Origin: Bolinopsis microptera
Taxonomy: Eukaryota > Ctenophora > Tentaculata > Lobata > Bolinopsidae
Direction: 5' to 3'
Assembly: GCF_026151205.1 (NCBI RefSeq)
Contig: NC_087079.1
Coordinates: forward strand, 12,824,635-12,888,634
DNA length: 64,000 nt
In this document: positions 6,073-49,800 of the stretch, piece by piece
How the letters are laid out: every line of letters starts with the position of its first letter
Numbering within the stretch: position 1 is the first letter of the stretch
The notes under the pieces: model-generated
Told to the model about the DNA's origin: nothing
Databases searched by the model: none
Seen by the model: the letters and a program-made list of their open reading frames with translations, nothing else
Program-made: the position numbers and the translations under genes

Positions 6073-6674
6073 ATAAGGACTATAGAATGTAGTGTAAATT
6101 TCTCACAATGTATGAAATCTAAATTTATGTCAGATGTAATTCAAGGAGTCTCATCCTATGAAATAAACAATAGTTTCGACTATTTCTACACTCTAGCTAT
6201 GTGACAACTGAAACAATTTTTAAGGTGCTGGAGTTTTTGTCGGGTGGAAAGGCCCCCTGCGTTATATGACCTATTTTCAGAAGTATAGAACTTTAAACAT
6301 CTCCTTTATTCGTTCCCATTTGTTATCATTGCCATTCTAATGTTGTTCTATACTTCTCTGTGTATAACTGTAAATAATATTACTTACGAAATTCCAAAGT
6401 GGGCATCTATGTAATTTTCAACATTAATTGTTACCTTCATGCCCACAGTTCACTGTTAAATCATATCTTATTTTACCACTCATTAATTTATTACTTATTT
6501 TGTTTTACAATTTACATGCTATTATATCCTTATGTCCCTAGAAGGGTGTTCTGCTAACAGTTTTTGACTGACTTGAATGTCCTGCACAGCAGATTGAAGC
6601 TTCTTAAATTATTTTTTATTCTTATTGTATTGCTGTGTAAATTTGATTCTAATTCTAATTTTAATTCTAATTCT
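6073..6674 (+). mobile_element. LINE 3' end inserted within the LINE
   Basis: This insert splits the endonuclease frame. On the minus strand the left part ends ...SDIV and the right part resumes VLCINETHF, sharing one GTT codon. The insert is untranslated and AT-rich. It ends on the plus strand in a TTCTAA-type microsatellite (6647-6674), which fits the 3' tail of a 5'-truncated CR1-like element. No coding capacity is left. Confidence 0.65.
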
Positions 6675-6790
6675 AACAATGTCAGACTGGTACAGCGAAA
6701 CAGCATTTCTCAATTCACAAAACTTATTATATAAACTATTACTGTTACTATAAAACAATTTAAGGTTTAGGCATCCTATAGCTTTGCTTT
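6675..6790 (-). pseudogene. LINE endonuclease N-terminus (displaced fragment)
   Basis: The minus frame reads LNLKLFYSNSNSLYNKFCEL and continues RNAVSLYQSDIV, the usual start of an APE endonuclease domain (first beta strand with the catalytic Asn). It belongs to the ORF at 3154-6072 and is cut off from it by the insertion. Confidence 0.75.
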
Positions 6791-6854
6791 CTCTGCAAGT
6801 CGCTTTCTCCGTTCCTGTCTCACAAAAAATTTTAGAAATATCAGCGTATAACAA

Positions 6855-7144
6855 AACTGATGATTTTAATTTTCATGTTGTATCCCTTACATTTCCTCAC
6901 AGTAACATCCCAACCGAGGTTGGCTACAACGTTTTTTCAAGTCAAGTTCTTAGATATGGTAATGTTTGCACTAGATTGGATATCTTTACCTCCCATCTTC
7001 ACAAAATATTCAAAATTCTAATTGATAGAGGATATAGCCGTGATAGACTGATTAAAGGCATTAAACGTTGTCTGAGGAAATATGATAACGTTTTCAGGAA
7101 GTTCGGTATTCTAGATGACCGTAACATTATTAAAGAACTCCCCT
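6855..7144 (+). pseudogene. Penelope-like reverse transcriptase, 3' part (fragment)
   Basis: The + frame resumes the RT that stops at 2925: YNKTDDFNFHVVSL, then PHSNIP, VLRYGNVC, and a helical thumb-like end (ILIDRGYSRDRLIKGIKRCL) up to KFGILDD. This is the standard order downstream of the YLDL motif in this RT type. The frame ends at ELP where the next inverted-repeat element begins. No GIY-YIG nuclease is visible after it. Confidence 0.65.
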
Positions 7145-7976
7145 GGGGGGGAATGCAACGTCAATTAATGTCAGTATTCCATGAAAACCCCAAACTGACA
7201 TTGACATTAATTGACATTAATTGACATTAATTGACATTAATTGACATTAATTGACATTAATTGACATTAATTGACATTAATTGACATTAATTGACATTAA
7301 TTTGTCTTGAAATTTGAGATTATCATTATTCGATAAATATTCAAGATATTCACGTCTATGTAAGTTTGACCGGTTCAAAAAAACAAAATGTCCTTGAATA
7401 ATTATGAGTATGTTCTTATCTGTTGATCCTTAGGTTTAAAGACCACCAAAAAAATTTCAGCTTCCAACTCTTCCATCTTCGGTCCCCACCGGCCACGCCC
7501 ATATTTTATTGGTTTCTTATACTGGTAAAATATCTAGAATCGGCTTTTTTAGTATGAAGGAGTAATGTTAGCTGTTTAAGATTCGTTATTCAAATATAAA
7601 TGTCATGAAGGCATTTCGTTTAATGTGGGTTTTAAGTTCTGATGACGTTGAGAACCACGCCCTTGGATGGCCACGCCCATTTAAGAAAATTAAATTTCGG
7701 AAAACCGTATTATTTTAGTTTTATTGTTTAATGATCTGAATTTTTTTCACATTTCACATTTTCATATGTGATAGTAGTGAATAAATTGATGATATAAACG
7801 TTCTAAAGTGCTAAAAATATGGTAGAACTACATAATCTCTGGTCGAAAAATATCGTGTCAATTAATGTCAGTATTCCAAAATTTTGCAAAACTGACATTG
7901 ACATTAATTGACATTAATTGACATTAATTGACATTAATTGACATTAATTGACATTAATTGACGTTGCATCACCCCC
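7145..7976. mobile_element. MITE-like element with G-rich terminal inverted repeats and TTGACATTAA arrays
   Basis: The left end reads a run of seven Gs then aatgcaacgtcaattaatg. The right end is its inverse (cattaattgacgttgcat, cacccccc). The 7-bp direct repeat ctcccct flanks both ends (7138-7144 and 7977-7983), so this looks like a transposed unit. Next to each end is a block with the same internal plan (tcaattaatgtcagtattcc, a spacer, aactgacattgacattaa) followed by an array of the 10-bp unit ttgacattaa, about ten copies at 7202-7301 and about six at 7897-7960. The middle is unique and non-coding. It would move only with a transposase supplied elsewhere. Confidence 0.75.
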
Positions 7977-31800: not shown

Positions 31801-34800
31801 ACAAAAGTAAGTTTTCAAACATAGAAATTTTTCTTATAAAGGATTTTTGTAGCTCTATATAATATTAACCCTATAAAGCGCTATAAAACGTTGTTCCCAG
31901 AGGATAAAGCGAAGGCTGATCAAAAAGCCAAAGAAGAGGAAGAATCTAAGAAAAAGGAAGAGGAAGAGAAGGATAAGGATAAGGATAAGGATAAGGAAGA
32001 AGAGAAGGAGGAAGAAATAACTGAAGAGGTTTTGGAGGAAGAGTTCAAGAAACTGAATATCGAGGAGGAAGATGATGATGGTATGTGGCTTCAGTATAAT
32101 ATTGAATCAGTAGTTGCTTGCCAATTGTCCTTCTTCATTTACCTTATCTGGTGTTATTTCATCATTGCATGGTTTAAGTAATTATCTCAGATGAGGAGGA
32201 AGAGGAGATTGTTGTAACGGAGACGACACAAAACGCCAACAACAAAGAGGACCCTGATGGGTTTGGAACCAGCACTATTACTATCAGTAATAAGGCTATG
32301 ATGGAGAGTTTCATTGCCAAACTCTCCAATATTAGCAACCGTGATCTTGTTAACGAGGTGATTATTGGGCTGTTAAGAATTCTGTACAGTTTTAGGACGA
32401 GACATTTTAGGAATGAGAATCCAATGTTAGTGACCTTTTGTATTATCTATTATTGTATCTTAGGTTGCACAAGAGTTCTGTTTGAAGTTGAACACCAAAA
32501 GTAACCGAAAGAAGCTAGTGAGGGCACTGTACGGTGTATCAAGAAACAGGTTTTTTAGAATTGACACTTCCACGCTCTTTTGCTAAGGGGTCGTTCACAC
32601 ATTACGTAATCAGCTGAGGAGGGGGGGGGGGGGTTTCCAAATGATTACGTTAATGTAATTTTGACACAATAGCTATGTGTAAAACTGATTACGGAGCGGG
32701 GGGGGGGGGGGGGAAAAATGTTCCAAAAAGTGACTGCGTAATATGTGAACGACCCCTAAGAAGAAATATTGTGTTCTACTACCCGCTTGTGAGCTGTTCA
32801 CAGTGAACAACACAACATATTTCACTCGTCCTAGTCTTTAATTTTAATTCATCAGGTTAGATCTGTTGCCTTTCCACGGCCGCCTAGTCAGAACTCTGTC
32901 CCCTATCTTACCTGATATCCCAACGGACTTGTTCACCCTTCTGAAGAAAGAGTTTATCTATCATGTAAGATAATATTGAACAGTTTATCTAACCATATTT
33001 CTTTAAAACCCAGTTTTGAGAACATAGACTTAATCTTAACGTGGCACGAGGAAGGCTAAAGGGTCTACTATAGATTTTTGTGGAACGCGCGGTGACGCTG
33101 CTATACACAAATGCTCTTTTGTCGATTTTGAAGTTTTCTTTCGCGCCGCGCGCACGTATATTATTTTCACATTTTTTGAGGAATTCAGACAAAGCTTGTT
33201 TCAACTTTCAAGTCTGATCAATTCCGCAATTAATTGAATGCCATGTTCCGCAATGTTGTTCATGAAGCACTTTCACTTCGTGTAATGATAGAATTAAAGT
33301 AAAAACTAACTGAGTAAACAATTCGTAAATCCCAAATTCTCAGTTAAGGAAGAAAGATCAGAATAACCTTGAGACAAAAGTGAAGAATATCCGATTTATT
33401 GGGGAACTCTGCAAATTTGAGATGTGCGAGAATTCGGATGCTCTCTGGTGCCTACGAGTTTTGCTAGGTAACTACCATCGTATTTAGTTCACCCAATTTA
33501 ATGTGATACATAGTCTACTGAAATTGAGTTCCTTGTTAGGGCCATAGCATTTGATATCATCATGAATCAGATATTAATAACAGTTCATACATCATCATTT
33601 ATCCTGCTGAATTGATCAGACAGTGAAATTTGATTGATTTGAAACTTTTACAAATAGTACATTATACAATACAGCAAAGAGAATTAAAAATATACGACAT
33701 TATTATCATGAGGCATTAGTAGGGTAAAAGTTGTAGTCCATATTGTATAAATACTAAAAGCATGGTTAAGTGGTACAAGTTCTGGGGGTATACGTATTAC
33801 AAGTAATAGTTCTACTCCCAGACTCACTAACACCACCTCCATCTAAACACACAAATGTATCTAAAACACGCAAATTTAGAATTATCAAAATAAATACATA
33901 ATGTATCCATGACCTGACTCATATTGCGCCAAAAATTGCGCGCGTATCATCACACAGCGATTAAAAGCAAGATTACAGTCGGATATAAAGTTTGCGTAAT
34001 CCAGTTAAGTATATTAACTGAGGACTGCACCAGGGTCAAATCATGGTGACAGAACGTAAATGTTATTTAATATTATTTAATTTGACCAAAACCCATAATC
34101 ATGGGTAGAGTGAACCGCTGCCAGTGTCTCTCTTTTCCAAACAAAAGAAAATGATATTAATTTGAGGAACCGTCCGCAAATGCAAATTGATACCGAGAAT
34201 GAAATCGGTCGCTCGCTTTTCCCATTCAATAAGCTTTATTACAATACGTAAGCCGTGAATGAATGGGAAAAGCGAGCGACCGATTTCATTCTCGGTATCA
34301 ATTTGCATTTGCGGACGGTTCCTCAAATTAATATCATTTTCTTTTGTTTGGAAAAGAGAGACACTGGCAGCGGTTCACTCTACCCATGATTATGGGTTTT
34401 GGTCAAATATCATCTCTTTTTGACTATAATGTCAGGATAATTTACACAGTCGAAACTTAATAAGGAGGTAATTTCAACGATTTCGAAATTTTACCTTTGA
34501 AAACGTTTCCTTGTGTTTAGGTAGGCATATCTGTCAATAACAGACTGAATATAGCACTTTTTACTCATTCAAGTTGGCATTAAATTCATATATAATGCCA
34601 TTTTAATATCGTGGGAAAGCAGAATATATTCGAAATCACGAATGAGCAAAATTCTCACCTTTCGCACGTGCAAACTTTGAGCGGACGTTGCGTGCGCATA
34701 AAATATTGAATCACCATAAATTTTTGCATAGTGTTATTTAATATATAGTTTGATAAGCATGAAAAGTTTCAGAAGATTTCAAAAAGAACTTGGATCACAA

Positions 34801-37800
34801 CGGGACTCCAAAGTTGGTAAAAATCGTGAAAATAACAATTTTTAGTGATTTTAGCTATTTTAAATGAATTTGGGCGTGTCCCCACGTGTGCAACTTTTCG
34901 ATTTTCAACTTTAAAACTAGCCTATAACACAATTTAGACCTTTAGGAAGCAAAATTGAGCTCCACAACCCAAGGGATGGCCCAACACCAGAGAATACTAA
35001 TTCACAACTTTTGTGTTTTTATAAAATTATTCTTCAAAAAAGCACAAACTTCAATAGCGAATATCTTTATGAAGGAGCAAGGTAGGAAAACTTTCCGGTA
35101 GATTTTCAGAATGCTTGAACAATTATCTGAGATGAAAATGTCCTCAGATTTTGAATAAAATTACTCCTTAATGCTTTAAAATCGATTTGAAAAGTTGTTA
35201 TTTTGTCAAAAATCAAGTTTTAAAAACACTTAAATTGATGACGTCATCAAGTGATGATGATGACGATAAATTATTTTTCGATATAATGTAAACTAAAGTA
35301 TAAACAATTATCTTTAAAACCTGTGGTTCGAAATGACTGTATCTTTTATACTTTTGAATCTACGGACACTTAAATGTAGGCTACAATTTACTGCAAAAGC
35401 GTCTATACATATATACTTATATATATACATATATAGCTTCACGACAATCTGTTGTAAAACAGGGGTTCCAGAAAACCCACTTCCCGATACTCCTGCAACA
35501 TGAAATTTTTTTTACAGTCGATTTGGACAAGGTCTAGACGCTCTGCAAAGTTTCAGATCTCTAACTCGATTTTAACATGGTTTTTAAGGCACCTGAATAT
35601 GGCGATTTTGGGTTTTTTACCTAATTTCGTATAACATGCTGGCGCGTATTTTGCGCAAATTTCTTAAAAACCTCCACATAACTATTTCTTATTCCTGTCA
35701 TCTTTAACATCGAATTAGAATGTTTTGAACTTAAATATACCTGCTGAACTACTTTCGATGAGTCTTAATGCCTGGAAAACAATAAAGGGGATATAATAGT
35801 ATAGGGGGTACATAGTGTTGTGAATATAAGGGCAACGGTTATGCTTGCCAGCATTGTGATAGATTTCTTTTTATATTATAGTTGTTATATTCAGTATCGT
35901 GACCGATCTATCAGTGGCGGGGGCCCACATATAAATATCATTTGCACTCATTAACTTAGTCAGGGTCTGTCAATTTGTCCCAAAAGTGTTTTGCCAGGTT
36001 TGCCTTAAAAGTTCCGGCATCACTTATCTCTTTAAGGTCAGTTGGTAGGTCATTCCAGACACTGTGTGTTCTGAAGAAGAAGCTTCTCTTAAAGGAGTGA
36101 GCTTTTGCTTCCACAGTACACTTCAGGGAAAGGTGGTCGTGTCTGTTCTGTCGCCTCTGGTTGATATCAGGCATTTGAGATGTATCAACTTCATTATATC
36201 TCGAGGGTTGCCTTATGTTTGAACGCAACCTACCCTGTTCACTGGTTGTTATCGGGGTTAAATAAGGTGGGAGCTTCAGAACAGATTGATCATTGTATAT
36301 CTGATGGAATAATAGTAAGTCTGTGTATTCAAACTTCAGCTCCATTGGCAACATGTCTAGCTCTCTTAATCGAGCCAAGTATTCTAAGTCATTATAGTGA
36401 TGATCCTGTTCGCCAAGGATCCACTTAACTGCTCTGCGCTGAATGTTTTCAACTTTGTTATTCAAGACAACACTTGTTGGTCTCCAGACAACACTGCAAT
36501 TTTCGAAAAGGCTCCTAACCAGCGCTAGATAGAATGCCCGTTTTTGTTTACGGTCGTTAATAAACCGTAGAGTTCTTTTCATTAGACCTAGACGAGAACT
36601 AGCTTTCGTACAAAGGTTGACTATGTTCTCCTCCCACTTAAGGTCAGTTCTAACAAAGACCCCAAGGTCTTTTTCACTCTGGACGAAGTCTAGTGCCGTT
36701 CCATCTAGGGTATAGACAAAGAGCTGGAAGGGGAAAAAACTCAAAATTCCCTTTTCACTCATTTTGCTAGATATAGAGAGCACCTTGCATTTATTTGGGT
36801 GAAACTTCATTTTGTTTCTTACTGCCCAGCAATGCAGGGCGTCTATGTCTGCTTGTAGGATCTCATGGTCTCTCCAGCCCGTGATTTTACGCCATATTTT
36901 GGTGTCATCAGCGTATAGGGCTATCTTTGTACCTTCACTTACGCATTCTGACATGTCGTTAATAAAGAGTACAAAGAACAGAGGTCCTAAAATGGAGCCT
37001 TGGGGAACCCCAGATTCAACATTCTTAAGTTCTGAGTGGGATCCCCCAATTATAACACACTGTTTGCGGTCTTTAAGATAGTTCATAATGAACTTCAACA
37101 GTGTACCATTAATTTCAAATTCCGATTTTAATTTCTTTAGGATGACATCATGGTTAACTGAGTCAAAGGCCTTGGCAAAGTCAAAGTATACCACATCAGT
37201 TCTGACATTATCGTTGATAGACAGAGAGAGACAGTCTATATACCCGACCATTTGTGTAGTACAAGACCTCTGAGGAAGAAAACCATGTTGGTTGTCATGT
37301 ATTTTATGCTGGCATTTTGCCAACAGTTCATCTCTCACAATTTTTTCAAAAATTTTCATTACAAGGCTGGTGAGAGAGATTGGCCGATAATTTTCAACTA
37401 GAGTTTTGGGGCCTTTCTTATGCACAGGTACTACGTTAGCCAATTTCCACTCAGATGGTATCTGACCTATGTTATATGAGATTTTAAAAAGGCTCGAGAG
37501 TGGATATGCAATACTATCTCTACAGTTCTTTAAAATTTTGCCATGGATACCATCTGGACCAGCAGCTTTATTAACATTGACATCTTTTAGAATTTTTCGG
37601 ATTCTGCTGGTACTGAACTCAATGTCGTTTACTGAGTCATTACTATAATCAATATCAACATCATAATTACTCGCTTCGGAAAACTGTGCAGCAAAATATT
37701 CATTGAACATTTCAGCTTGGTCTAAGTGATTGTTTCTAAATCTGCCGTTATAGTTTACTGTTCCTGGTATGCGAGTAGATTTTGATGTCGATTTGACATG

Positions 37801-40800
37801 TTTCCAGAATTTCTTTGATATAAGAGCTGGATCATCATCATCATTCAAATTTGATATCATTTTTTGGTCGACCAAATTTTGAAAATCTTTTCTACATTGT
37901 GAGAACTTTTCATAGTCCTCAGCTAGGCATGATCTTTTAGATTTGACTCGTAGTTTTTCTTTTTTGAGACACAGCTGATAAGTGTCAGAGTCAAACCAGG
38001 GTGGCTGATCCTTATCTGATATCGTAATAGTTGGGATTCGGTTGTGTATGTGATGGAACAGGATTTTCTTAAAACGGAACCATCCTGTTTCTGCATCACA
38101 GTTAAGGTGATCATCCCATCTAACTGATTTCAGATCATTGTTCAGGCCGATCCAGTCTGCTTTTTTGTAATTTAAGATTTTTCGTTTGGTGACCTTCTTT
38201 CTAAACTTCATTTTAGCACTAAAAGTTATTCCAAAGTGATCTGAGGAGCATATCTCATTTTTCCCCAGGACCGCCAAATTTTCAACAACACTTATCATAT
38301 TACAGAAGAGAAGATCGAGGACCTTCCCTTTATCATGAGTGGGTTGGTTTATCATTTGTGTTAAGCCTAGGTCATTAAACAGATCTATAAAACGGCCACC
38401 AAGAAGTGTGGGGGACACACCGTCTGACCAGTTAACTTCAGGTAGATTGAAGTCCCCAACTACAAAGTGGGCCTTAAACTTTCTCCGTCCTACCACATTT
38501 CTGAGGTGTTTCTCAATTTCATTAAAATTATTTTCACCAAGGGTGCCAACTCTGTAGCAGGCAGTTATGCAGTAGCATGAGTTGTTTGATTTTAGGCTGA
38601 CTGAGATCATTTCAGCCCTAGAGCTGACATCAATCTTGTCATTTTCAATACTGATGCCAGTCTTGACTGCAATAAGGACTCCGCCCCCTTCCTTCGAAAC
38701 TTAATTGGGTTATCAGGATCCGGGGGGTGGGATCTTTTGGATCTATCCTTCCGATATATCTTGTAGATGCTATCAGGGAGGATCTCATTTTCCAGGTGCT
38801 CTTTTGAAAGCCAAGTCTCAGTCAGAACAATAACATCAGGCTTGTCTTCATAGATCTTAGATTGGAGCTCTAGTAGTTTACCAGCATCAAGCGGCATGTT
38901 TTTAGATGCTAGGCCACTAAAGGGGACAAGCCCTCTCAAATTTTGGTACATTACCTTTAGATGACTGAGGTTATTGTTATCAACTGGACCTGGGTTAAGT
39001 ATGCTTGTATTACAGATAACAAGCAAAACTAAGTTCAGAATGGTCGTCCAGATGGTGAACATGTTACTTAGGAACTGATGTCCACTACACTTAGCGGAAG
39101 AGTAACGTCTGGGACAACCATACTTCACTATCCATAGGGCTATTCCATTTTGTTTCTTTGAATAGATGATCATTAGGACTACAAGATTTGCACTGTTCAT
39201 AAGGCAGTCCCAGTCATTGGTCAGGTGTAGTCCGATCTTGTACGAGCGATGCATACGAAATGTTTGGTCTGAGTATTCACTTGCTGTTTCAATGGCCCCC
39301 GCCAATAACAGACAGATCATATACACATATACAACAATCACTACTCCATAAATCATCTTTAAAATAGCACTTTTCTCTATAGTGGTAATTGAATCTATAT
39401 TTAATTTAGCATTGCATTTGACTTTGGGAGAGTATAGACCAATCACTGTTCTGTGTTGTAAAAACGTGACTCCCATAAATTAGTTTAAAACTCAAAGTTA
39501 AATGGAGACTGGAAAATATGTACTGAATTATACTCTGTTAAAGAAGCAAGAAGTTAATGAATTAAAATATTGTCAATTAATAAATATGGGAACAAATATG
39601 AGAGCATTGTTAAGCTATAATGTTCGTTAAAAATGAAAGAGTTCTCTGAATTCTATAAGTTGAACATGTTACAAGATGACTACCTAGGTTGGTTAGCAAC
39701 GCCAATAAGAACTTTAGCTAACACACTGGTTCCAACAGGATTAAGATGGATACCATCCCTGTTAAACATATTAAAATCTAAAAGCCACATAGTAGGTGTC
39801 TTCTTTAGGAAAAAAGAGAAAAAGTCAACAAATCTTATACTTTCTTTCTTACACATCTCACTTAATAGGTCATTAAACTTATGCATATTTCTAATATGTG
39901 TAAGATAACTTGCCTTCCTAGGGACAAGTGAAAAGAAATTAATCTTAGCTGCAGGAAATACCTGTTTTGTTAGGATTATAAGGTCATTAATGTCTTCAAA
40001 TATGCGTTTTATGTCAGAGTCTACAATCAAATTTTCAACATCATTTCCCCCGACTTGAAGGAACACAGTGGAAACATTAGATGTATTAAATTGCTTGGCA
40101 CACTTTTCAACTTCGTTATAAATGTCACAAGCGTGTGCTCCAGACCGGGAGATAACTTTAAAAATTTTTCCACGCCTGGAAAGTGTTTCAGTTTTCAAGC
40201 TCTTGACGAGGGAGCTGCCAAACACAAAGGTATCAGGGTATGTGGCATCTTTGGAGGTGCTGGTTGCAGGGGAGGTTTTCGGTTCTGCAGAGGAGGGGAG
40301 GAGGATGGGGGAGGAGGATGGGGGAGGAGAATGGATAGCAGGAGGGGCTTCTTTAGGTGGGAGCAGACGTCGGAAGGTGACACTGTAACGGACTCCCCTT
40401 TCTTTCTGTACATCTTTGTCTCCAGCAAGTATTTCATGGTAAAAAGATTGCTGGAAACCAGGCAACATCGTGAATATGCTCCCGGGAGTAAGAGTAAGGT
40501 ACTTGACGGATTTCTTTTTGTCAAGGGAAATGTTCATTTTCCGAGTTGCACCAATCGAGAGTGTTGATATTGGTGCACCTGAATCGAGGCCTGCTTCATC
40601 ATCCTTGTGGGGAGGAAGGCAACACAGATATGAGCTGTACTTGTTAACTAACATGGAGTTATACTCTGTTCCTAGTGTTAAGTTAACAGTCTTCAGCAGT
40701 TTATCCATGATGGTGTTGGGTTGGATAGAGACTGGTGAGAGGGCAGCAGATCTTCGATTGTATGCGTATCGTTGGCTGCCGTACAGGAAGGTATCTGGGC

Positions 40801-43800
40801 TTAAATTTGTTCCAGACCTGCTGTAATTGATATTCTTGACGTGGCCAAGGACTTCCTCAACCAGAGGCTCACTAAGGGGGTCATGTCGAAGATTATAGTG
40901 AAGGAGCAGCGGAGATGGAGAAGGTGGGGAAGAGGATGATGGACTCGATGATTCCTGTATTTTGGGTACTGGAGAGGGTGCAGAATCAAGTAGCGTGTTG
41001 GTATATTGGAGAAGGTTCTCCAATGTATTCTGCACCTTTCTAAGTTCTTCGTTAGCGAGATTTCCCAGTTGGGGAACTATAAGGTCTTTCAGTTTATCAA
41101 GTTCCAAAACAATGAATGATTTATAAAAGTTAAGGACGGGAAACGTGATCTCCGTCTTCTCCGACGACAAGACAGATCATAAACACAGCTTAAATCAAAT
41201 GATTTAGTTTGACTGACAAAATCTTTCTTTACAAATGCCACCATTTTTCTGTATGTTATAGACTACTTTATTTACTTACTGTTTGATTTGTTAGAAACAG
41301 ATCGCACATGGCAGACAATACAACATCGGTTCCTTTCAACTTCGGTGTGAAGTATTTCAACTCAAAGTACCAGTCGAACATTGAGGTCCTCTTGAGAGAT
41401 GGTGAGAAGATCAAAGTCAATTCCGTAATTCTGTCTATTAACAGCCCCTATCTTGAAGAAATAATCGAGAAGCAAAAGTTAAAAATCATAGAAATGGATG
41501 GGTTCGATCCGATCGTGTGTCGAGGATTTTTGAGGAGTTTATACACAGTTGACTTATCAATGCTAGACAGGGGCTCCTTTAGACAAGTCAGCAGAATGTC
41601 ATACACGTTTCAAGTAACTTGGATGAAACTAAAGTGCTTCGAGTACTTCAACTGTTTGATGAATGCGGTCCCCAACATCGGCAATAATGGCATTCCTACA
41701 GAGGACGACAGATTCCTGCTGGAGGAGGCCATCGCAGCCAAACCGTTTGATGAAGACAAACAATACTTGAACGCTCTAGTTCAATGGAAATCCAGTAATT
41801 TATGCAATAATGATGTTTCCTGTATGGGGAATGTGCTAGAAGACTTGGGAAGCCTACATGTGGATCAACTTGACTTCTTTATTCGTGTTGCTAATAAATG
41901 CGAACGAGTCTTGCCGGGGTCGAAGCAGAGCCGCCGGTGCAGGAATCTCACAATCAAAGAAATCAAAAAAGAGTGTTCAACCGTCATTGTAGAAAAATTA
42001 ACCGCACATCTTATGAAAATAGAGAAATTGGATACCAAAACAAGATACGTATTAGAAAATCTGGACTTTGGTGGTATTACTTCCAAGTTTAAAGCGAACC
42101 GTAACTATCCAGGGCGACAAGACATCGTACGGGTATCGTATCAATCGTATCCTCTCGTGGGCCGTCCAGGCTTCTCTTCTAAAATAAAAGACAATTTTAA
42201 AATAGCTGCGACCACGATGTTTCAAAGCATAATGAACCTCAAAGAGATTTCCAACGACGATATGAAGATGACGCTTAAACGTTTCATGAGTTTGGGAAAC
42301 TAATCATAAACTGCACTGATAGCGTTCTGTAATTGTGGAAATCTGTTAAACAATAAAAATATTGATAATTTAATTCAGTTTACTACTATTTAGTTGAAAA
42401 TTGTCCTGTTTACTCATGATTTGAACAACACTCTAAGGAAATTGTGCTATATGCAGTTTACAGAGCATAATCAATGATGAATACGTTATATTAATGCACA
42501 TATGTTTTACTTTGATCTCACGACGAATTTGGACACCTTGAATATAAAATGTTATTCTGAACACATTATAATATTCCATATTCCGGCTCAGATGTTTAAT
42601 TAACTTAGCCCAAATATGGGGGATCATTTATTCCGTTAATTTGCGATATTTCGTCATTGACCCGAAAAGTTCGAACATAATATCATATGGTTTAATTGGT
42701 GGCACCATACTAAGAAAGAAGGAATCATGTTTTAAGATCACAAATCGTTGGTATTATATTGTTTTTGGAAATTATAAGGATGCCTCATTTCAGAGCAGTT
42801 CACACATCACAACATTGAGATAGCCTGCAGTCTGGTGGAATGTTGCGGAAGATACCTCTTCAGATCTCCGGAAACTCATCTGAAAACTAACCATCTTCTT
42901 GTAAGAAACTGCCGTCCTTCTGAAGAATCAGTATATGTATCAATATTAAATAACAGCTACACGTGAAAGTAACTGAAATTTCCACAATTTATAAACAGAT
43001 AACTCAAATCTAACCTCGCACCTCTCCAAGGACCAAATGATGCGGAAGAAAGCTGTTCACAACTTGGATACAAGGCAGATTACTATGGTTGAGAATGCGT
43101 ACTATTATTGTAACCCACCTGATCGTGTGGCTTATGTTAAGGTACTGGAAGCTAGCTTAATGAATATTGAATCAAGATTAACAATTAGTTACTAGTTAGT
43201 GTTGTTCTCAGTTGTTGTTATTATGTATGTTCTTATGTAACGGAGCTCTTGATTAGATGAGATTTGTGCCATGAAAGATGATCATAATAAGAGTAAAACT
43301 CAGTGAAATTAAAGTTGTTCCTTTTCAGAAAGTTAGACCTCCACTTCACGAGTACATAAGGAAACTTTTGATCAAAGACCTCAACAAGAATAACATCGAG
43401 AAAATACTCCGACAGTTCAGAAAACTCCCTTGGCAAGACGATGAAGTAAGTACCCAGTCTGACATTAAATCTTACAAACATGAAGGGGAAATTTCTTATA
43501 TATTGTTGGAATTTCCCAAACATAAAATACGTCCCTGGCTGCACCTGGCACCACCCCACACTTCACATACCATTCACATACCAGGCTAACATAACGTCTA
43601 CCGTAGAATTACCACGGGGTACGTCTGGTATTAACCTGGTATTAACCTGGTATTAACCTGGTATTAACCACGGGGTACGTCTGGTATTCCTTGTCTTCCG
43701 TTTCACCCCGTCTGGTAGCTTTACTCTGACCCCGTTCCGCGTCTATCTTGTGAATTATTCTATTTAGTAAAGTCTGGAGGGTCTACTGTGGCAGTCTACC

Positions 43801-46800
43801 CGGTCCGTTTTTATACTGTAGACCTTTTTAACATTAGCCTTGCTGATTCCTTGTCTGATCACTGGTGTTTAATTCCTTTTACGATTCCGTCGTCCGTTTT
43901 AATGAGATTCTGGGGTTTAGTCGTAGCCGATGGTGGTGAATTAATTATATATTACATGGAATTCTATATGACATGGAATCGTGGTTAAATCGGCCTATAA
44001 ACTGGGGTGGTAACTGTGAAGCAAAGATTTGGAGTGGAGTTGCTCTTCTTACTTCGGCTGCTCAGTTTACTGTTTAGCATTAATATGTCGACAGAATTTC
44101 CATGTACACACCCGCAGTAATTGTCGTATGTTGTATTATATGATGATAGATTTGAAATATATGTAGTTACGACAAACTTGTTGTCTCACTGCATCGTTTA
44201 CTCTTGGTCTTAGATAATATGCTATTTCTGCGCTAGAGTATTGAAGTAATTCGATTTAGAATTTTAATTAAACTCGAACTTAAAATGGCCATATACAATG
44301 TATACATGTACTGACATTAATTATAATATCTATTAAAATAACTAAAATATAACCGTTATGCCTCATCGGCTCACCCAACAGCAAAATTTATCATTTTTTG
44401 TGTCCGATCGTTTTGCTCTAAGACTCCCAAGACTTAGTGTTTTATCAGATAATCAATGATTATCTGAATTAATCATTCGTTCAACTGTGCACAGACAAAC
44501 AGTCATTCTAAACGTACAATATATATTTTGGAAATTAGGCAGTACAGCATATTCAAAGTAGCAAATAAACTTAAGCAAATAAACAAAAAATAACAATCTC
44601 AAACAATTTAAAAGTAAATATCCCAATTTCTTAGTGCTTTCAGCTGTCACTACTCACTACATAAGGCTTTGTCAGGCTTAGAAACATAAGTACGATCTTC
44701 CAACTCCATCTGGACAACACTGTTGTCATTTCTCCTTATTGAGCTGATCCAAGAAACTGCGTCACGTTTGAGTATTACGATCTTCCCCGACACCCAGTCG
44801 AATATCGGCTTGCAATGTATTAAGGGGTTCATGAACGAATTGATCGGGACAACAATTCCAATCAAAGTGTCTGTATCCAAGAATGGAATGGACCAGTCGA
44901 AGAAGCTGCCAATGATTGCAACATTAACAGGGATCCAACATAACAGCTGGGACCCGATCACCAGGGAGATCTTCAGAGATAGAAAGAAAACCTGACCATT
45001 AGACTCATTCTTCGCTCTGTTGGTTGGTCGTGTTTGTGCTCGAGACTTTATAAACTGATGAGAGATCAGAATGTAGCATGTCATGATGATTAGCAAATAC
45101 AGGCAGCTTTCTACTATGTAGAAAATTTTGTAGCCCAGCATAACTCGTTCGTTTGTGAATAAGTCAGGGTAGCACATGGAAGATTTTCCGTAAAACCCAA
45201 TGGATGTAATCCTGTCTGGAGCAAACAGTACGCCGTTGGACGTCATACTGCTCAGTTCCTCTAAAAGTTTCTTGGTGGACATGGAGGAAGTTACATTGAA
45301 AGAAATGCGCTTGTAAGCAGTCACCACCCTCGCTAAATCTAATTTCTTACCTCTATTAATGAGAGGGTTCCTAGCAAACAAATGTTCATGAATGAATATG
45401 TCAGCCCAGTCTGAAAACACGGTCGTTGCTGCAAAAAACGGTGCAAAAGCTCTGGCAATATTGACACAGTTAACCAAGGGAAAGACCGCCATGAACCCGG
45501 ACATGGTGATCTCCCTGCCGGACATTCCATTAAGACAGGTAAAACACCGGCAGACACTCATTGCTACAGCTACCTGTAGTGCACCTTGACTAGCTGCAAA
45601 GAGGATTGTCCCCGCAAATCTGCAGACTACGGAGGATCTCCAGTACACATCGAATAGACAGTACTTCCCATCGTAGACAAAGTTGGCTCCTACAACTGTC
45701 GCTAGGTAGATGGCGATCAATAGGTCATATCCACCAAGCACTATGCACTGAATCTTGTCAACCTTGAATGCCGCCTTTGCAGAAGAGTCATATGTAGTCA
45801 GATGATAGTAGATTGCATAATTATTGAGGACCAGTATGCAAGCCATCTGAATTGCAACCACGTAAGGAAGCACTCTGCCACTTATCAAATTATCTTGGGA
45901 GGAGAGGAAGGAGGAAGTGGTACAGTTGTTGCATTCATCAGAGGAATCCGAGCAATCTGAAACTGAGTTACATGTCATGTTTATTGGAATGGGCTTGTTG
46001 TCTGACTTGCAGTAGAACGTGTCTGGACAGTCCTGCTCATCAATACCGTTCTCACAGTGCTGAATACCGTCACAGAATACCATCTTTCTCCGTCCGTCAT
46101 TGTGGATCACACTTTGGATGTTATCTTTCGACTGGATTTTGCACTTGTATGTTGGGTAGTTAATTCCTGTGTGATGCAAAATTATTCTTTTGCAGTGAGA
46201 GCTGATCAATGTTTTATTCATTATGCATTGCTTAACTTTTCTGGGATCTAATGATATCACTCCAACACCATGACCATCTGCATCTTCCCAAGCTTTTAAA
46301 TCATCGTAGAACTTCTCTGCGGCATAGACATAGTTTGCCTCTAAGCAGTTCGGCTGTACGAAGCATTGTGCTTGTGACTGATTGAAACTTTGCACCTTTT
46401 TGCAAGTTAGAAAATCTTGACAAACACACTCGTCACTGTAGTCCTTACAATTTGCCCTTCCATCGCAGACCTGGTCCAAAGATATGCAACCATCACCGTC
46501 AGCGCAAAGGAAAGTCTCATATCCACAGTTACACTCATCAGTGAGGCAGGATGAGTAGTTGTTGCACACCTGGCTTTCTGAGAGTACGCAACCCGATCTC
46601 GGTAACCCCGAGAAATTAAAGGTACCGTAGTAGCAAAGTTTGTATCCTGAAAAGGATTCCCCCTCCCTTGCCTTCTTAAATTCATCAATATCAGAGAATC
46701 TGTAGACTTTGTATTTATCCCGTACCGGCATTATGGAGCTTATTTCCCCGAAGACATAGTCGTTACAGATTGTGTGCTCGAATTTCTTTTCAGCTAGTGA

Positions 46801-49800
46801 GGGTGTCGTTAGTAGGAAGTGGGTCGATTGTGTGATTCTTTCCCAAGCCGTGAGGTTGAGTATTGAGAGGTAGTTTCGAGGTAGTTGAAGTATCTCGGGT
46901 GCTTCATTACCAAGCTCAGAACTCAGAGTGAAAGTCAGCAGCCCTACCAGAACGAGTAGCCTCATATTATCGTACCTTGAATATGACTAGTAAGAATAAT
47001 GCTACAAAATAATATAAAGCTAAATGGAGTATTGATCTTGATTAACAGTGCATTTGTAAGGTGGAGTAATACGTAGGAAGGATACAAGTTGCAGTTGTAA
47101 TTCAAGTTTTAGGACAGACTACGGATAAATTTGCGGCCAAGACGTGTATTTAGGGCCATGAATAGAGTTTACTAGGCTTTTGCGGCTGCGTGGACCGAGA
47201 CAAAATGACCACTCCCAGTAGCTTATTGGTAGCACCTTGGTCTATAATTTAGTCATTGTAAAATTTATTGTCTGGACATTTATGTCCTTCTTGCATTTAT
47301 GTCCTTCTTGCATTGATTCATATTATGTTATTGTTTTCTTTAAGGATCAGCCTTTTTTTAGCACCTGCATGGTCATCAAACATTCTATTTCCAGAGATCA
47401 AATAGAGAAACTGTTTAAATTATCCCGACCTATGTACTCTTAAGGGGGGGGGGGGGGGGCGGGTTCACCCTAATTTTTTGTGAAACTTGGTTTCGAGACC
47501 AACAAACTAGGACCAATGACCGAACTTTTGAGGGGGTCCCGGACCCCAGCCGCCAAACGGTGCCTGCGGGGCAGCCACGCCCATATTTGGTCCAAATTAG
47601 GCCCAATTTAGCCAAATACCCTGAACATGCCCAAACCCCAGATTTTAGGTGCTCTTTTTGTAGCTAGTGGTCCCCTGAACTCGTACATGAATTTTCATCA
47701 AGATTGGACAAAAAATGACTGAGTTATGAGCCAAAAACCATAGTTTGGCCTTTAAAAAATTTGGCGGCCAAATTCCAAAATTTGCAATGTATTTTTCAGA
47801 ATTTGGCCTAACTCAAAATTCCAATACAAAACTTAAGGTCGAAATGCGATTCTACGTTGATTTTGAAAATTTCATGTTTAAAAATATTGAAACCCTATTG
47901 AGTTCTATTGTTTTGAGCGAAATCAGTTTCGCAAATATCGCGAACTGAGATATGGGCGATTTTATTCATTTTTTGCGATTATTTGAACACAGAATCCACA
48001 GTTAGGTAGATACTGAGCTGATAATCATAGAGAATGTGTAGTATAGGCTTACCTTCCATATAAAGTTGGTTTCATTCAAAAATATTGATATTTGACCAAT
48101 TTATGGGCCAAAATCGATCAAATTTGGTGCGTATGCCCAAATATGGTCATATGGTTTTTGGCTCATAACTCAGTCATTTTTTGTCCAATTTTGATGAAAA
48201 TTCATATACAAGTTTAGGGGACCACTAGCTACAAGAAGAATCTGGGTTTTGGGCATGTTCAGGGTATTTGGCTAAATTGGGCCTAATTTGGACCAAATAT
48301 GGGCGTGGCTGCCCCGCGGGCACCGTTTGGCGGCTGGGGTCCGGGACCCCCTCAAAAGTTCGGTCATTGGTCCTAGTTTGTTGGTCAACTGCTATCTCGA
48401 AACCAAGTTTCACAAAAAAATCAGGGTGAACCCCCCCTTAACCCACTAAAAAAGGGTAAATTGATATTAGTAAATAATAAGGTCTAAAACCATGAACAAG
48501 TTATAATTTTACAAGAAATAATTGTGTGCTCTTTTGAGACAGCCGGTTACTTAGCTACGAGATGCCGCCGAAAACAGTTAACATCGGCATTAGCGGAACA
48601 CGAATACTTATACTATAGCTTAGCCAATAAGAATTGACCAAAATATACTCTACCATCCGATTGGGTACTCAGATATAAAATAATAAAGCCACAAGAAAAG
48701 ACTGAACTATATGCTCCAGGGAGCGCTGATTGCAGACATTGAAATAAATACTTCGAAGCTCGCTATTCGAGTCTCGAATCAAGGACAATACAGACTATCA
48801 TACATAGATTTTAATTGGTGGATGAAGCGAGTCGTCACGTCTGGTATCTACTCACCAGTCACCCCTGCTTTCTTATTCAAATGAGGGGTGGTCAAAATTG
48901 TCAATATTTAGTTGGATATCGCTACAAGTCGCGACAAGCATTCACAAAATATCATTGAAATCAGTACTTCGAAGTCCGCTTCGCAAACCTTGATCATTGA
49001 GCTTTATTCAGATTCGTTGAATCGCTGGGCCATACAAAACTGTTCTGTTTTAATTGATGGGTGAAGGGAGTTCTCGCTAGATGGCGATTAATCACTCCAC
49101 ACTCGATAATCACATGACTCACTTAAACACGTTTACTTGTTACCCCGCAGTGACTATTCAAACCACAAACCTCTACTCTGAACCCAACCCTTACTCTAGA
49201 ACCCAATCTCTAACTGAAGCATATGCTGAAACCCTTGCCCTAACGAGAAATTAGACCAACTTCCTTATATGATCATGTCACAGGTTTCTGATGGAGAAGA
49301 GAATATGTTGACTACTGCTCAGATATCGTCACATCAGTATTGATTTCAGACCTGTATTATTGCAATTTTCTCTCTACAATATTCTACTCCTGATGTATTA
49401 TAGTTACACATAGTTATACACATAGTTACACATAGTTACACTGTAGCTAAATAGAGGCGGAACTTCTACGGTAACACATTCCGAACGTATATTAATATGC
49501 AAAATATTTACCAAAACCTATAATACGAGATATTAAATTTACGACGAATGTAAATCAACATACGTCATATTGAGGCATTTTTTTCTCCCTTTTGAATCAA
49601 TCAAGCTAGATGATTTGTTTTAAATACTGAGATCAAACTATCAATTTACAGGCTACCGTCAAACATGTTGCAAGGCGTCATCTTCAGTGACATAAGCTTC
49701 ATATTGTAGATAGATTACCTCAAGTTGAATATAATTCTTCTTAACTTTGGAGATTGAAAAATAAAAATAACGTATCATTTTTTAAATGGCTCACTTCATT

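Follow-up and report, generated by a model that had tools for sequence, protein, structure and literature searches.

Esterase-type (type IV) first open reading frames (ORF1s) of the CR1/L2 long interspersed nuclear elements (LINEs), for instance that of ZfL2-1, carry an SGNH domain and lie upstream of a second frame (ORF2) encoding an endonuclease and a reverse transcriptase (PMC3905857 and PMC4120745, in the parts of these articles available to us). No AlkB domain is reported for them: the words 'alkb' and 'oxygenase' are absent from the text of PMC4120745, and 'alkb' and 'dioxygenase' from that of PMC3905857. The nearest precedent found for a retrotransposon with an AlkB-family enzyme is a Ty3/Gypsy element of the orchid Phalaenopsis, the ALKBH5-like 2-oxoglutarate-dependent dioxygenase of which is an N6-methyladenine (m6A) demethylase in vitro (available part of PMC9289625). 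Here we describe a LINE located in a 64,000-nucleotide stretch of the genome of the ctenophore Bolinopsis microptera (contig NC_087079.1, positions 12,824,635 to 12,888,634; this whole stretch is called the window). Its ORF1 places an AlkB-family oxygenase of the ALKBH2/ALKBH3 kind between an N-terminal stretch and an SGNH esterase. As far as the literature searched shows, a LINE ORF1 that bears an AlkB akin to the alkylation-repair enzymes would be an undescribed type of ORF1.

In the orchid element as in the present one, the encoded oxygenase is of the AlkB family and its HxD...H and RxxxxxR motifs are intact. The former, however, is a long terminal repeat (LTR) element of one plant lineage in which the ALKBH5-like protein occupies a separate extra ORF (PMC9289625, same part), whereas here the domain is ALKBH3/2-like, joined to SGNH and found in LINE ORF1s and Helitron-like proteins of several distant families. 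Plant RNA viruses of the Alpha-/Betaflexiviridae and Closteroviridae are also selfish RNA replicons with an AlkB of their own, proposed to serve genome upkeep (PMC9289625, as above), but they undergo no reverse transcription. On the esterase side, bdelloid LTR retrotransposons and Athena/Penelope-like elements have captured a GDSL ORF3 (PMC5408684, available part), so that SGNH/GDSL domains are common to unrelated classes of retroelement; in those elements, however, the domain forms a separate ORF3, and 'alkb' and 'dioxygenase' are absent from the text. The PHD-containing ORF1s of CR1/L2 LINEs (PMC4120745, available part) are resembled by those AlkB ORF1s that show a weak PHD match below the cut-off (five loci, listed below), and a PHD-AlkB-SGNH arrangement falls outside the five ORF1 types described in that article. 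The solved sequences nearest to the domains carried by transposable elements (TEs) are ALKBH3 and ALKBH2, with which they have the HxDDE and RxxLTFR stretches in common, but which are cellular stand-alone genes. Judged by titles and the beginnings of abstracts, no LINE or Helitron with an AlkB domain was found among the papers listed from the openly licensed literature, although an earlier mention is possible.

The ORF1 frame lies on the minus strand of the window (39680-41170) and begins with a TTG codon, whereas the plus-strand translation of the same segment is riddled with stops. A sequence-only reading had noticed it as one uninterrupted frame of 496 residues joining an AlkB-like dioxygenase to an SGNH esterase. 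The frame does exist without interruption; that reading missed its strand, the 5' truncation of the element and the fact that residues 1-21 are flanking DNA. The motifs which it listed are found where it placed them (HKD at 188-190, RYSVTFR at 261-267, GGND at 374-377 and DGIH at 472-475), apart from VFGSS, which is present at 316-320 and not at 315-320. PF13532 (2OG-FeII_Oxy_2) matches residues 133-267 (E = 1.7e-12, 48.4 bits compared to a Pfam cut-off of 31.2) and Lipase_GDSL (PF00657) matches residues 362-486 (5.5e-5, 23.8 bits, barely over the cut-off of 23.6), values that rule out chance motifs as the origin of the matches. Lipase_GDSL_2 reached 3.7e-6 yet stayed below its own cut-off. 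When the window ORF1 was compared as a single sequence to the PDB with phmmer, the best AlkB-side match was ALKBH2 (1.7e-6), followed by ALKBH3 (0.0014); SGNH esterases such as lysophospholipase L1 / sialate O-acetylesterase were matched at 2.7e-5, and the LINE ORF1 chain 4c1b at only 0.13. ORF2 lies downstream on the same strand and matches an endonuclease family and RVT_1 (Table 1). With an APE-type endonuclease and a reverse transcriptase in ORF2, dispersed copies, a 5' truncation and a 3' repeat tail, the element is a non-LTR retrotransposon.

The frame is not unique to this locus. A protein search of the same genome with ORF1 returned 91 matches from several families, other copies with both domains among them. 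About 30 belong to a second family, 28-30% identical to the window ORF1, with both domains and many in frames of 478-481 amino acids; the 91 also comprise copies of further families and matches within very long frames. The sister loci L002-L006 are 96-98% identical to the window in protein sequence, and 5/5 of them retain the ATG and show no stop within the part that was matched (for L006, two overlapping parts). Sister ORF1s begin with MELDKLKDL and comprise 475 amino acids in L009, while L007 contains one stop and an old copy, L008 (64%), contains four. A genome-wide search with PF13532, in which 150 of 587 first-look candidates were scored, reported at least 151 matches; every match listed exceeds the Pfam cut-off and only one contains a stop, these counts being lower bounds. 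From this list 20 AlkB loci, chosen to span frame lengths, were fetched. In 15 of them an endonuclease and/or reverse transcriptase frame follows downstream in the same orientation, as confirmed by Pfam for 14 (L026 by frame and reverse transcriptase alignment only). Two further loci are remnants of AlkB ORF1s, the AlkB part of L024 being near that of L029 and L035 starting like L022. The other three, L017, L018 and L019, are stand-alone AlkB genes with no neighbouring ORF2 in the fetched piece, and are taken as the host's own ALKBH genes; L017 is ALKBH2-like (3.9e-60 against the PDB) and L018 ALKBH3-like (2.5e-39). As the host ALKBH2-like and ALKBH3-like genes stand separately, the possibility that the window AlkB is itself a host ALKBH gene was rejected.

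Three layouts of AlkB-bearing ORF1 were encountered: AlkB-SGNH, PHD-AlkB-SGNH (L021, L025, L026, L029 and L033, in which the PHD-finger matches near the N-terminus are weak and all under the cut-off), and AlkB followed by a coiled-coil-like stretch and SGNH (L022, L023 and L027). Four frames were also drawn from the SGNH list, of which three have the AlkB motif set; PF13532 exceeds its cut-off in L040 and L041, whereas L042 is assigned from the motifs alone. The fourth, L043, shows that the classical esterase-type layout coexists with the AlkB ORF1s in this genome; it is a 426-amino-acid ORF on the minus strand (60-1337 of that locus) with a coiled-coil-like part, SGNH and an RG-rich tail, and without the AlkB motif set. 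In L013, an ORF1 on the minus strand (6594-7766 and 1-714), in which PHD is matched weakly (0.026) and AlkB and SGNH motifs were recognised by eye, is broken by a second AlkB-SGNH LINE that runs in the opposite direction. Weak PHD-finger matches were also seen at the N-terminal end of ORF2, ahead of the endonuclease, in L021, L030, L033 and L034. When phage genomes were searched with ORF1 by tblastn, 15 of 50,697 records matched and none spanned 80% of the query; the best 5 of these 15 align with nothing but the AlkB part (29-32% identity), with no AlkB-SGNH fusion among them.

To describe the active site, 20 TE-borne AlkB domains (19 from LINEs and one Helitron-like) were aligned. Near-copies (L002-L007, L009-L011 and L036), the three host-like genes, the remnants L008, L024 and L035, the interrupted ORF1 of L013 and the later loci L038-L043 were left out, while the alignment retains the close rows L021/L026 and L022/L023/L027. 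At a mean column identity of 35%, residues Y135, H188, D190, E192, S205, G207, R210, Q240, H245, R261, S263 and R267 (window numbering) are invariant (20/20). It should be noted that the pattern used to cut the domains required HxD and RxxxxxR, which accounts for part of the invariance of H188, D190, R261 and R267, and restricted S263 to S, N or E, whereas H245, E192 and Q240 were free. His245, already singled out from the sequence alone, corresponds to column H133 of the family alignment, one of the invariant ones. In a motif search, the AlkB motifs were present in 24/24 sequences examined. In the corresponding esterase alignment, S320, G374, N376 and H475 are invariant (20/20) at a mean column identity of 26%, the catalytic S320 lying inside the pattern that set the start of the domain. 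D472, three residues before the His in the DxxH motif, is present in the window and varies in the family, L015 and L016 reading DIH. Pfam matches and catalytic residues conserved across copies and families thus uphold the proposal that a LINE ORF1 joins an AlkB-like dioxygenase to an SGNH esterase.

A profile of the 20 TE AlkB domains was then compared to the PDB. It matched ALKBH3 (8.9e-33), ALKBH2 (2.1e-25), bacterial AlkB (5e-11) and ALKBH8 (3e-10), and ALKBH1 weakly (0.06), while no ALKBH5 or FTO chain occurred among its 45 matches at E<=0.1. Taken alone, the AlkB domain of L023 is closest to ALKBH3 (4e-15) and that of the window to ALKBH2. By sequence, the TE domains are therefore nearest to ALKBH3/ALKBH2 and not to the m6A erasers ALKBH5 and FTO. 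The repair or demethylation role suggested by the sequence-only reading would fit this affinity; the preference for alkylation-repair enzymes over the m6A erasers, the further LINE families and the occurrence in Helitron-like elements go beyond it. The SGNH profile matched, at 3.7e-18, a putative platelet-activating-factor protein and, at 1.6e-14, the LINE ORF1 chain 4c1b ('ORF1-encoded protein'), which we take to be ZfL2-1.

The two domains also occur in Helitron-like elements. L014 holds a single frame of 2182 amino acids, cut by the end of the piece, with SGNH (4e-5, under the cut-off), AlkB (1.8e-20), DUF6570 and Helitron_like_N (3.1e-22), and the adjoining L037 continues with a PIF1 helicase (2.6e-22). 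The SGNH-then-AlkB order of L014, which is the reverse of that in LINE ORF1s, recurs in L038 and L039 (SGNH at 3.2e-6, below, and 2e-11, above the cut-off); only the SGNH-AlkB part of these two loci was fetched, and their Rep matches come from a genome-wide Helitron_like_N search. This search gave 41 matches, 7 of them within about 5 kb of an AlkB match on the same contig and strand (one on C3, two on C9, one on C10 and three on C12), and in 6 of the 7 pairs both matches have one open-frame length in common (2225 to 3388 amino acids). In these giant frames (L014, L037, L038 and L039; up to 3388 amino acids) SGNH and AlkB stand N-terminal to Rep/PIF1, with Pro/Ala-rich repeats in between.

A tree of the reverse transcriptases of 16 ORF2s, all from this genome, comprises five groups, four of them starred, and AlkB-SGNH ORF1s occur in all five; between groups, identity is 22-43% for the reverse transcriptases and 16-39% for the AlkB domains. 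In the AlkB tree all TE domains fall on one side of a branch that separates them from the host-like genes (86/81), and TEs may have captured AlkB a single time. In the same tree L022, L023 and L027 group with the three host-like genes (99/96, starred). The three Helitron domains stand together (85/84) and are joined by the window domain (91/83, not starred), which shares with them its highest identity, 39-41%. A topology in which all LINE domains form one side against Helitrons and host genes was rejected (p-AU, from the approximately unbiased test, 0.0096), while a tree holding the window with its relatives L012, L015 and L016 was not (p-AU 0.149). The identities and the grouping suggest that the window AlkB may derive from a Helitron, or that the transfer may have run in reverse. 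ORF1s also seem to have been exchanged between LINEs: L020 and L028 are 97.7% identical over 3220 bp of ORF2 and 3' part, starting just ahead of the ORF2 frame, whereas their ORF1s are 66-70% identical in DNA (65% for AlkB and 52% for SGNH in protein). Because nearly identical ORF2/3' parts accompany divergent ORF1s, with the change-over just before ORF2, this pair is best explained by ORF1 exchange. In the L022 and L023 group, WADD replaces YADD/FADD at the reverse transcriptase active site and AlkB lies in the first half of an ORF1 of 777-851 amino acids.

Selection was assessed as the ratio of nonsynonymous to synonymous substitution rates (dN/dS) by the Nei-Gojobori method on the AlkB part, with bootstrap ranges in brackets. 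Between L022 and L023 the ratio is 0.052 (0.02-0.10), compared to 0.164 for the N-terminal part and 0.197 for the part after AlkB, and AlkB is thus the most constrained part of this ORF1. Values of 0.049 (0-0.31; one amino-acid and six silent changes) were obtained for L022/L027, 0.164 (0.08-0.29; dS 1.3) for L020/L028 and 0.23 (0.09-0.56) for L021/L026. AlkB is under purifying selection in some LINE families, and selection is poorly resolved in the window's own.

We consider it an even chance that the AlkB domain of the ORF1 protein clears N1-methyladenine (m1A) and N3-methylcytosine (m3C), which block reverse transcription, from the template RNA or cDNA. The ORF1 protein would coat the element RNA and its AlkB domain would oxidatively strip both bases from it, possibly also from single-stranded cDNA; with the lesions that halt reverse transcriptases gone, target-primed reverse transcription could reach full length. 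The esterase might target the ribonucleoprotein to membranes or release it there, as proposed for ZfL2-1 (PMC3905857, available part). It is known that m1A blocks Watson-Crick pairing and truncates cDNA, that m1A in mRNA is demethylated by ALKBH3, and that full-length cDNA is regained in ARM-seq after treatment with AlkB (PMC9141559, available part). For the LINE protein we infer activity, substrate, RNA binding and benefit from the domains and their relatives. When reverse transcription of a LINE stops early, the usual outcome is a 5'-truncated copy. Helitrons lack a reverse transcriptase and are thought to transpose via single-stranded DNA, another substrate of ALKBH2/3-type enzymes. The ALKBH3-like oxygenase and SGNH could form a reusable cassette that moves between unrelated elements of one animal genome (five LINE reverse transcriptase groups and Helitron-like elements) and provides on-board lesion removal against the m1A/m3C block during passage through single-stranded RNA or DNA, comparable to the laboratory use of AlkB ahead of reverse transcription, a reading that we hold tentatively and at somewhat less than even confidence.

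Several observations weigh against or limit the demethylating oxygenase-esterase reading. Single-sequence AlphaFold models of the window AlkB and SGNH domains were useless (predicted local distance difference test scores of 31.3 and 40.1). SGNH exceeds a Pfam cut-off in the window, L009, L012, L015, L016 and L039-L043 and is below it in many frames; in L022, L025, L027 and L033 no SGNH match was found at E<=0.1 and the esterase is represented there by aligned motifs, as is AlkB in L012, L015, L016 and L042, which have no PF13532 match at E<=0.1. AlkB is not indispensable, because a LINE-type SGNH ORF without it (L043) occurs in the same genome. The dN/dS of AlkB is 0.389 (0.11-1.88) for L029/L024 and 0.486 (0.29-0.83) for the window compared to the old, stop-bearing copy L008, and recent copies of the window family differ too little to resolve selection, with values up to 1.7 in the N-terminal part. 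In AlkB, all three changes between L012 and L011 alter an amino acid and none is silent, while L015/L016 are saturated, so that neither ratio is computable. The choice of m1A and m3C as substrates, too, is one that we infer from sequence affinity alone, and the AlkB profile that points to ALKBH3/2 also weakly matches a DNA N6-methyladenine (6mA) demethylase (9.1e-6).

This last match favours the main rival, in which the domain would remove host-placed marks (m6A, 6mA or similar) from the element RNA or the inserted DNA and so evade silencing. The Phalaenopsis Gypsy-encoded ALKBH5-like protein, which demethylates m6A in single-stranded RNA in vitro (PMC9289625, available part), provides a precedent for such an eraser; with ALKBH3/2 by far the best fit of the profile and neither ALKBH5 nor FTO among its 45 matches, we regard this explanation as unlikely, though one to be taken seriously. 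The AlkB fold might otherwise serve only as the RNA-binding part of the ORF1 protein, replacing an RNA recognition motif (RRM), with catalysis dispensable. Other ORF1 types do bear RRM or CCHC domains (PMC4120745, available part), and no RRM match was obtained in the scanned AlkB-bearing ORF1s at the E-values used. A mere binding fold would not, however, need an invariant iron ligand and 2-oxoglutarate-binding arginines, and both arginines and H245, which lies outside the cutting pattern, are 20/20 invariant despite the low mean column identity, which makes this rival improbable.

Equally doubtful is a general tolerance to alkylation, in which the enzyme would act in trans and mainly repair methylated DNA, either host DNA or that of the integration site. 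Taken as a single sequence, the window copy matches ALKBH2 best, and the domain is also present in Helitron-like elements, as such a role might lead one to expect; but the genome has its own ALKBH2-like and ALKBH3-like genes, so that a benefit in trans offers no obvious selection for the TE copies. Finally, host ALKBH genes could have been carried along by mobile elements without any function, much as a platyfish Helitron mobilised an SGNH hydrolase gene (PMC4021074, available part). Recurrence in five reverse transcriptase groups, purifying selection and the lack of stops in every listed genome match except one make chance capture highly improbable, and it is contradicted for the families with low dN/dS.

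The window copy of the LINE was delimited by blastn against L009 and L010, which cover the loci of L002 and L003 at greater length. Identity is 98% over 35859-41106 and 96-97% over about 33628-34083, and the two blocks are separated by an insertion (Table 1). At the 41106 boundary the sisters read ACAATGGAACTT and the window TTTGGAACTT; the start-codon region is ACA-ATG-GAA in the sisters and TTTG-GAA in the window, where the native ATG is cut down to TG and the first ATG codon remaining in the frame is residue 155. Because sister homology stops inside the start codon, the LINE in the window is a 5'-truncated copy that has lost its start ATG, and residues 1-21 belong to the flanking DNA. Its 3' end is a short pentamer tail (TCAAATCA...), which varies between copies. 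No target-site duplication was found at the window copy, the longest stretch common to both flanks being 6 bases, with four such 6-mers. ORF2 is interrupted in 3/3 copies listed (window, L009 and L010), whereas related families have a long open ORF2 (1171 amino acids in L011, 1159 in L016). In the reverse transcriptase group of the window (window 38607-39476, minus strand, and L011, L015 and L016), ORF2 has a long hydrophobic extension that ends in S[IML]LNPGP directly before the endonuclease; this motif recalls 2A-like NPGP sequences, though without the usual D(V/I)E. Elsewhere in the window, a 771-amino-acid frame on the minus strand (44650-46965) contains low-density lipoprotein (LDL) receptor class A repeats (three stretches, 1.6e-10) followed by hydrophobic segments, and is possibly an LDLa-containing receptor, the receptor part being recognised by eye.

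Table 1. Features of the AlkB-bearing LINE in the window (positions of the 64,000-nucleotide stretch; residues of the 496-residue frame)
Feature	Position	Strand	Details
LINE copy	33628..41106	-	5' truncation at the start codon of ORF1; TCAAA-type pentamer tail at the 3' end; blastn against L009/L010
Insertion within the 3' untranslated region of the LINE, about 1776 bp	34084..35858	.	gap between homologous blocks; absent from L009/L010
ORF2, second part: remaining endonuclease and reverse transcriptase	35956..38610	-	PF14529 7.8e-9, RVT_1 1.8e-28 (Pfam)
ORF2, first part: hydrophobic N-terminal extension, LNPGP motif, endonuclease start (by eye)	38607..39476	-	separated from the rest by a frameshift
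ORF1, element-owned part	39680..41106	-	residues 22-496 and stop: N-terminal stretch, Ser/Pro linker, AlkB, Ser/Pro linker, SGNH
SGNH/GDSL esterase domain (S320, G374, N376, D472, H475)	39683..40243	-	residues 310-496; PF00657 5.5e-5; family profile to 4c1b 1.6e-14
AlkB-type 2OG-Fe(II) oxygenase domain	40346..40834	-	residues 113-275; PF13532 1.7e-12; ALKBH2 1.7e-6 (phmmer); family profile to ALKBH3 8.9e-33
RxxxxxR (R261, R267), putative 2-oxoglutarate-binding arginines	40370..40390	-	20/20 invariant; within the cutting pattern
Putative third iron ligand, His245	40436..40438	-	20/20 invariant; outside the cutting pattern
Putative iron-binding HxD (H188, D190)	40601..40609	-	20/20 invariant; within the domain-cutting pattern
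Flanking DNA extending the open frame (residues 1-21), outside the element	41107..41170	-	sister homology ends at 41106

These results also carry a warning for annotation. At least 150 AlkB-domain frames exceed the Pfam cut-off in this genome and 17 of the 20 sampled are parts of mobile elements or of their remnants, so what looks like an 'expansion' of AlkB genes may consist of transposons. No part of non-LTR retrotransposons is understood less well than the LINE ORF1 proteins. If they do include a conserved, selected demethylase, the question of whether base methylation of the template RNA limits retrotransposition would become testable by point mutants. The presence of AlkB in both LINEs and Helitron-like elements points to single-stranded intermediates as their common need.

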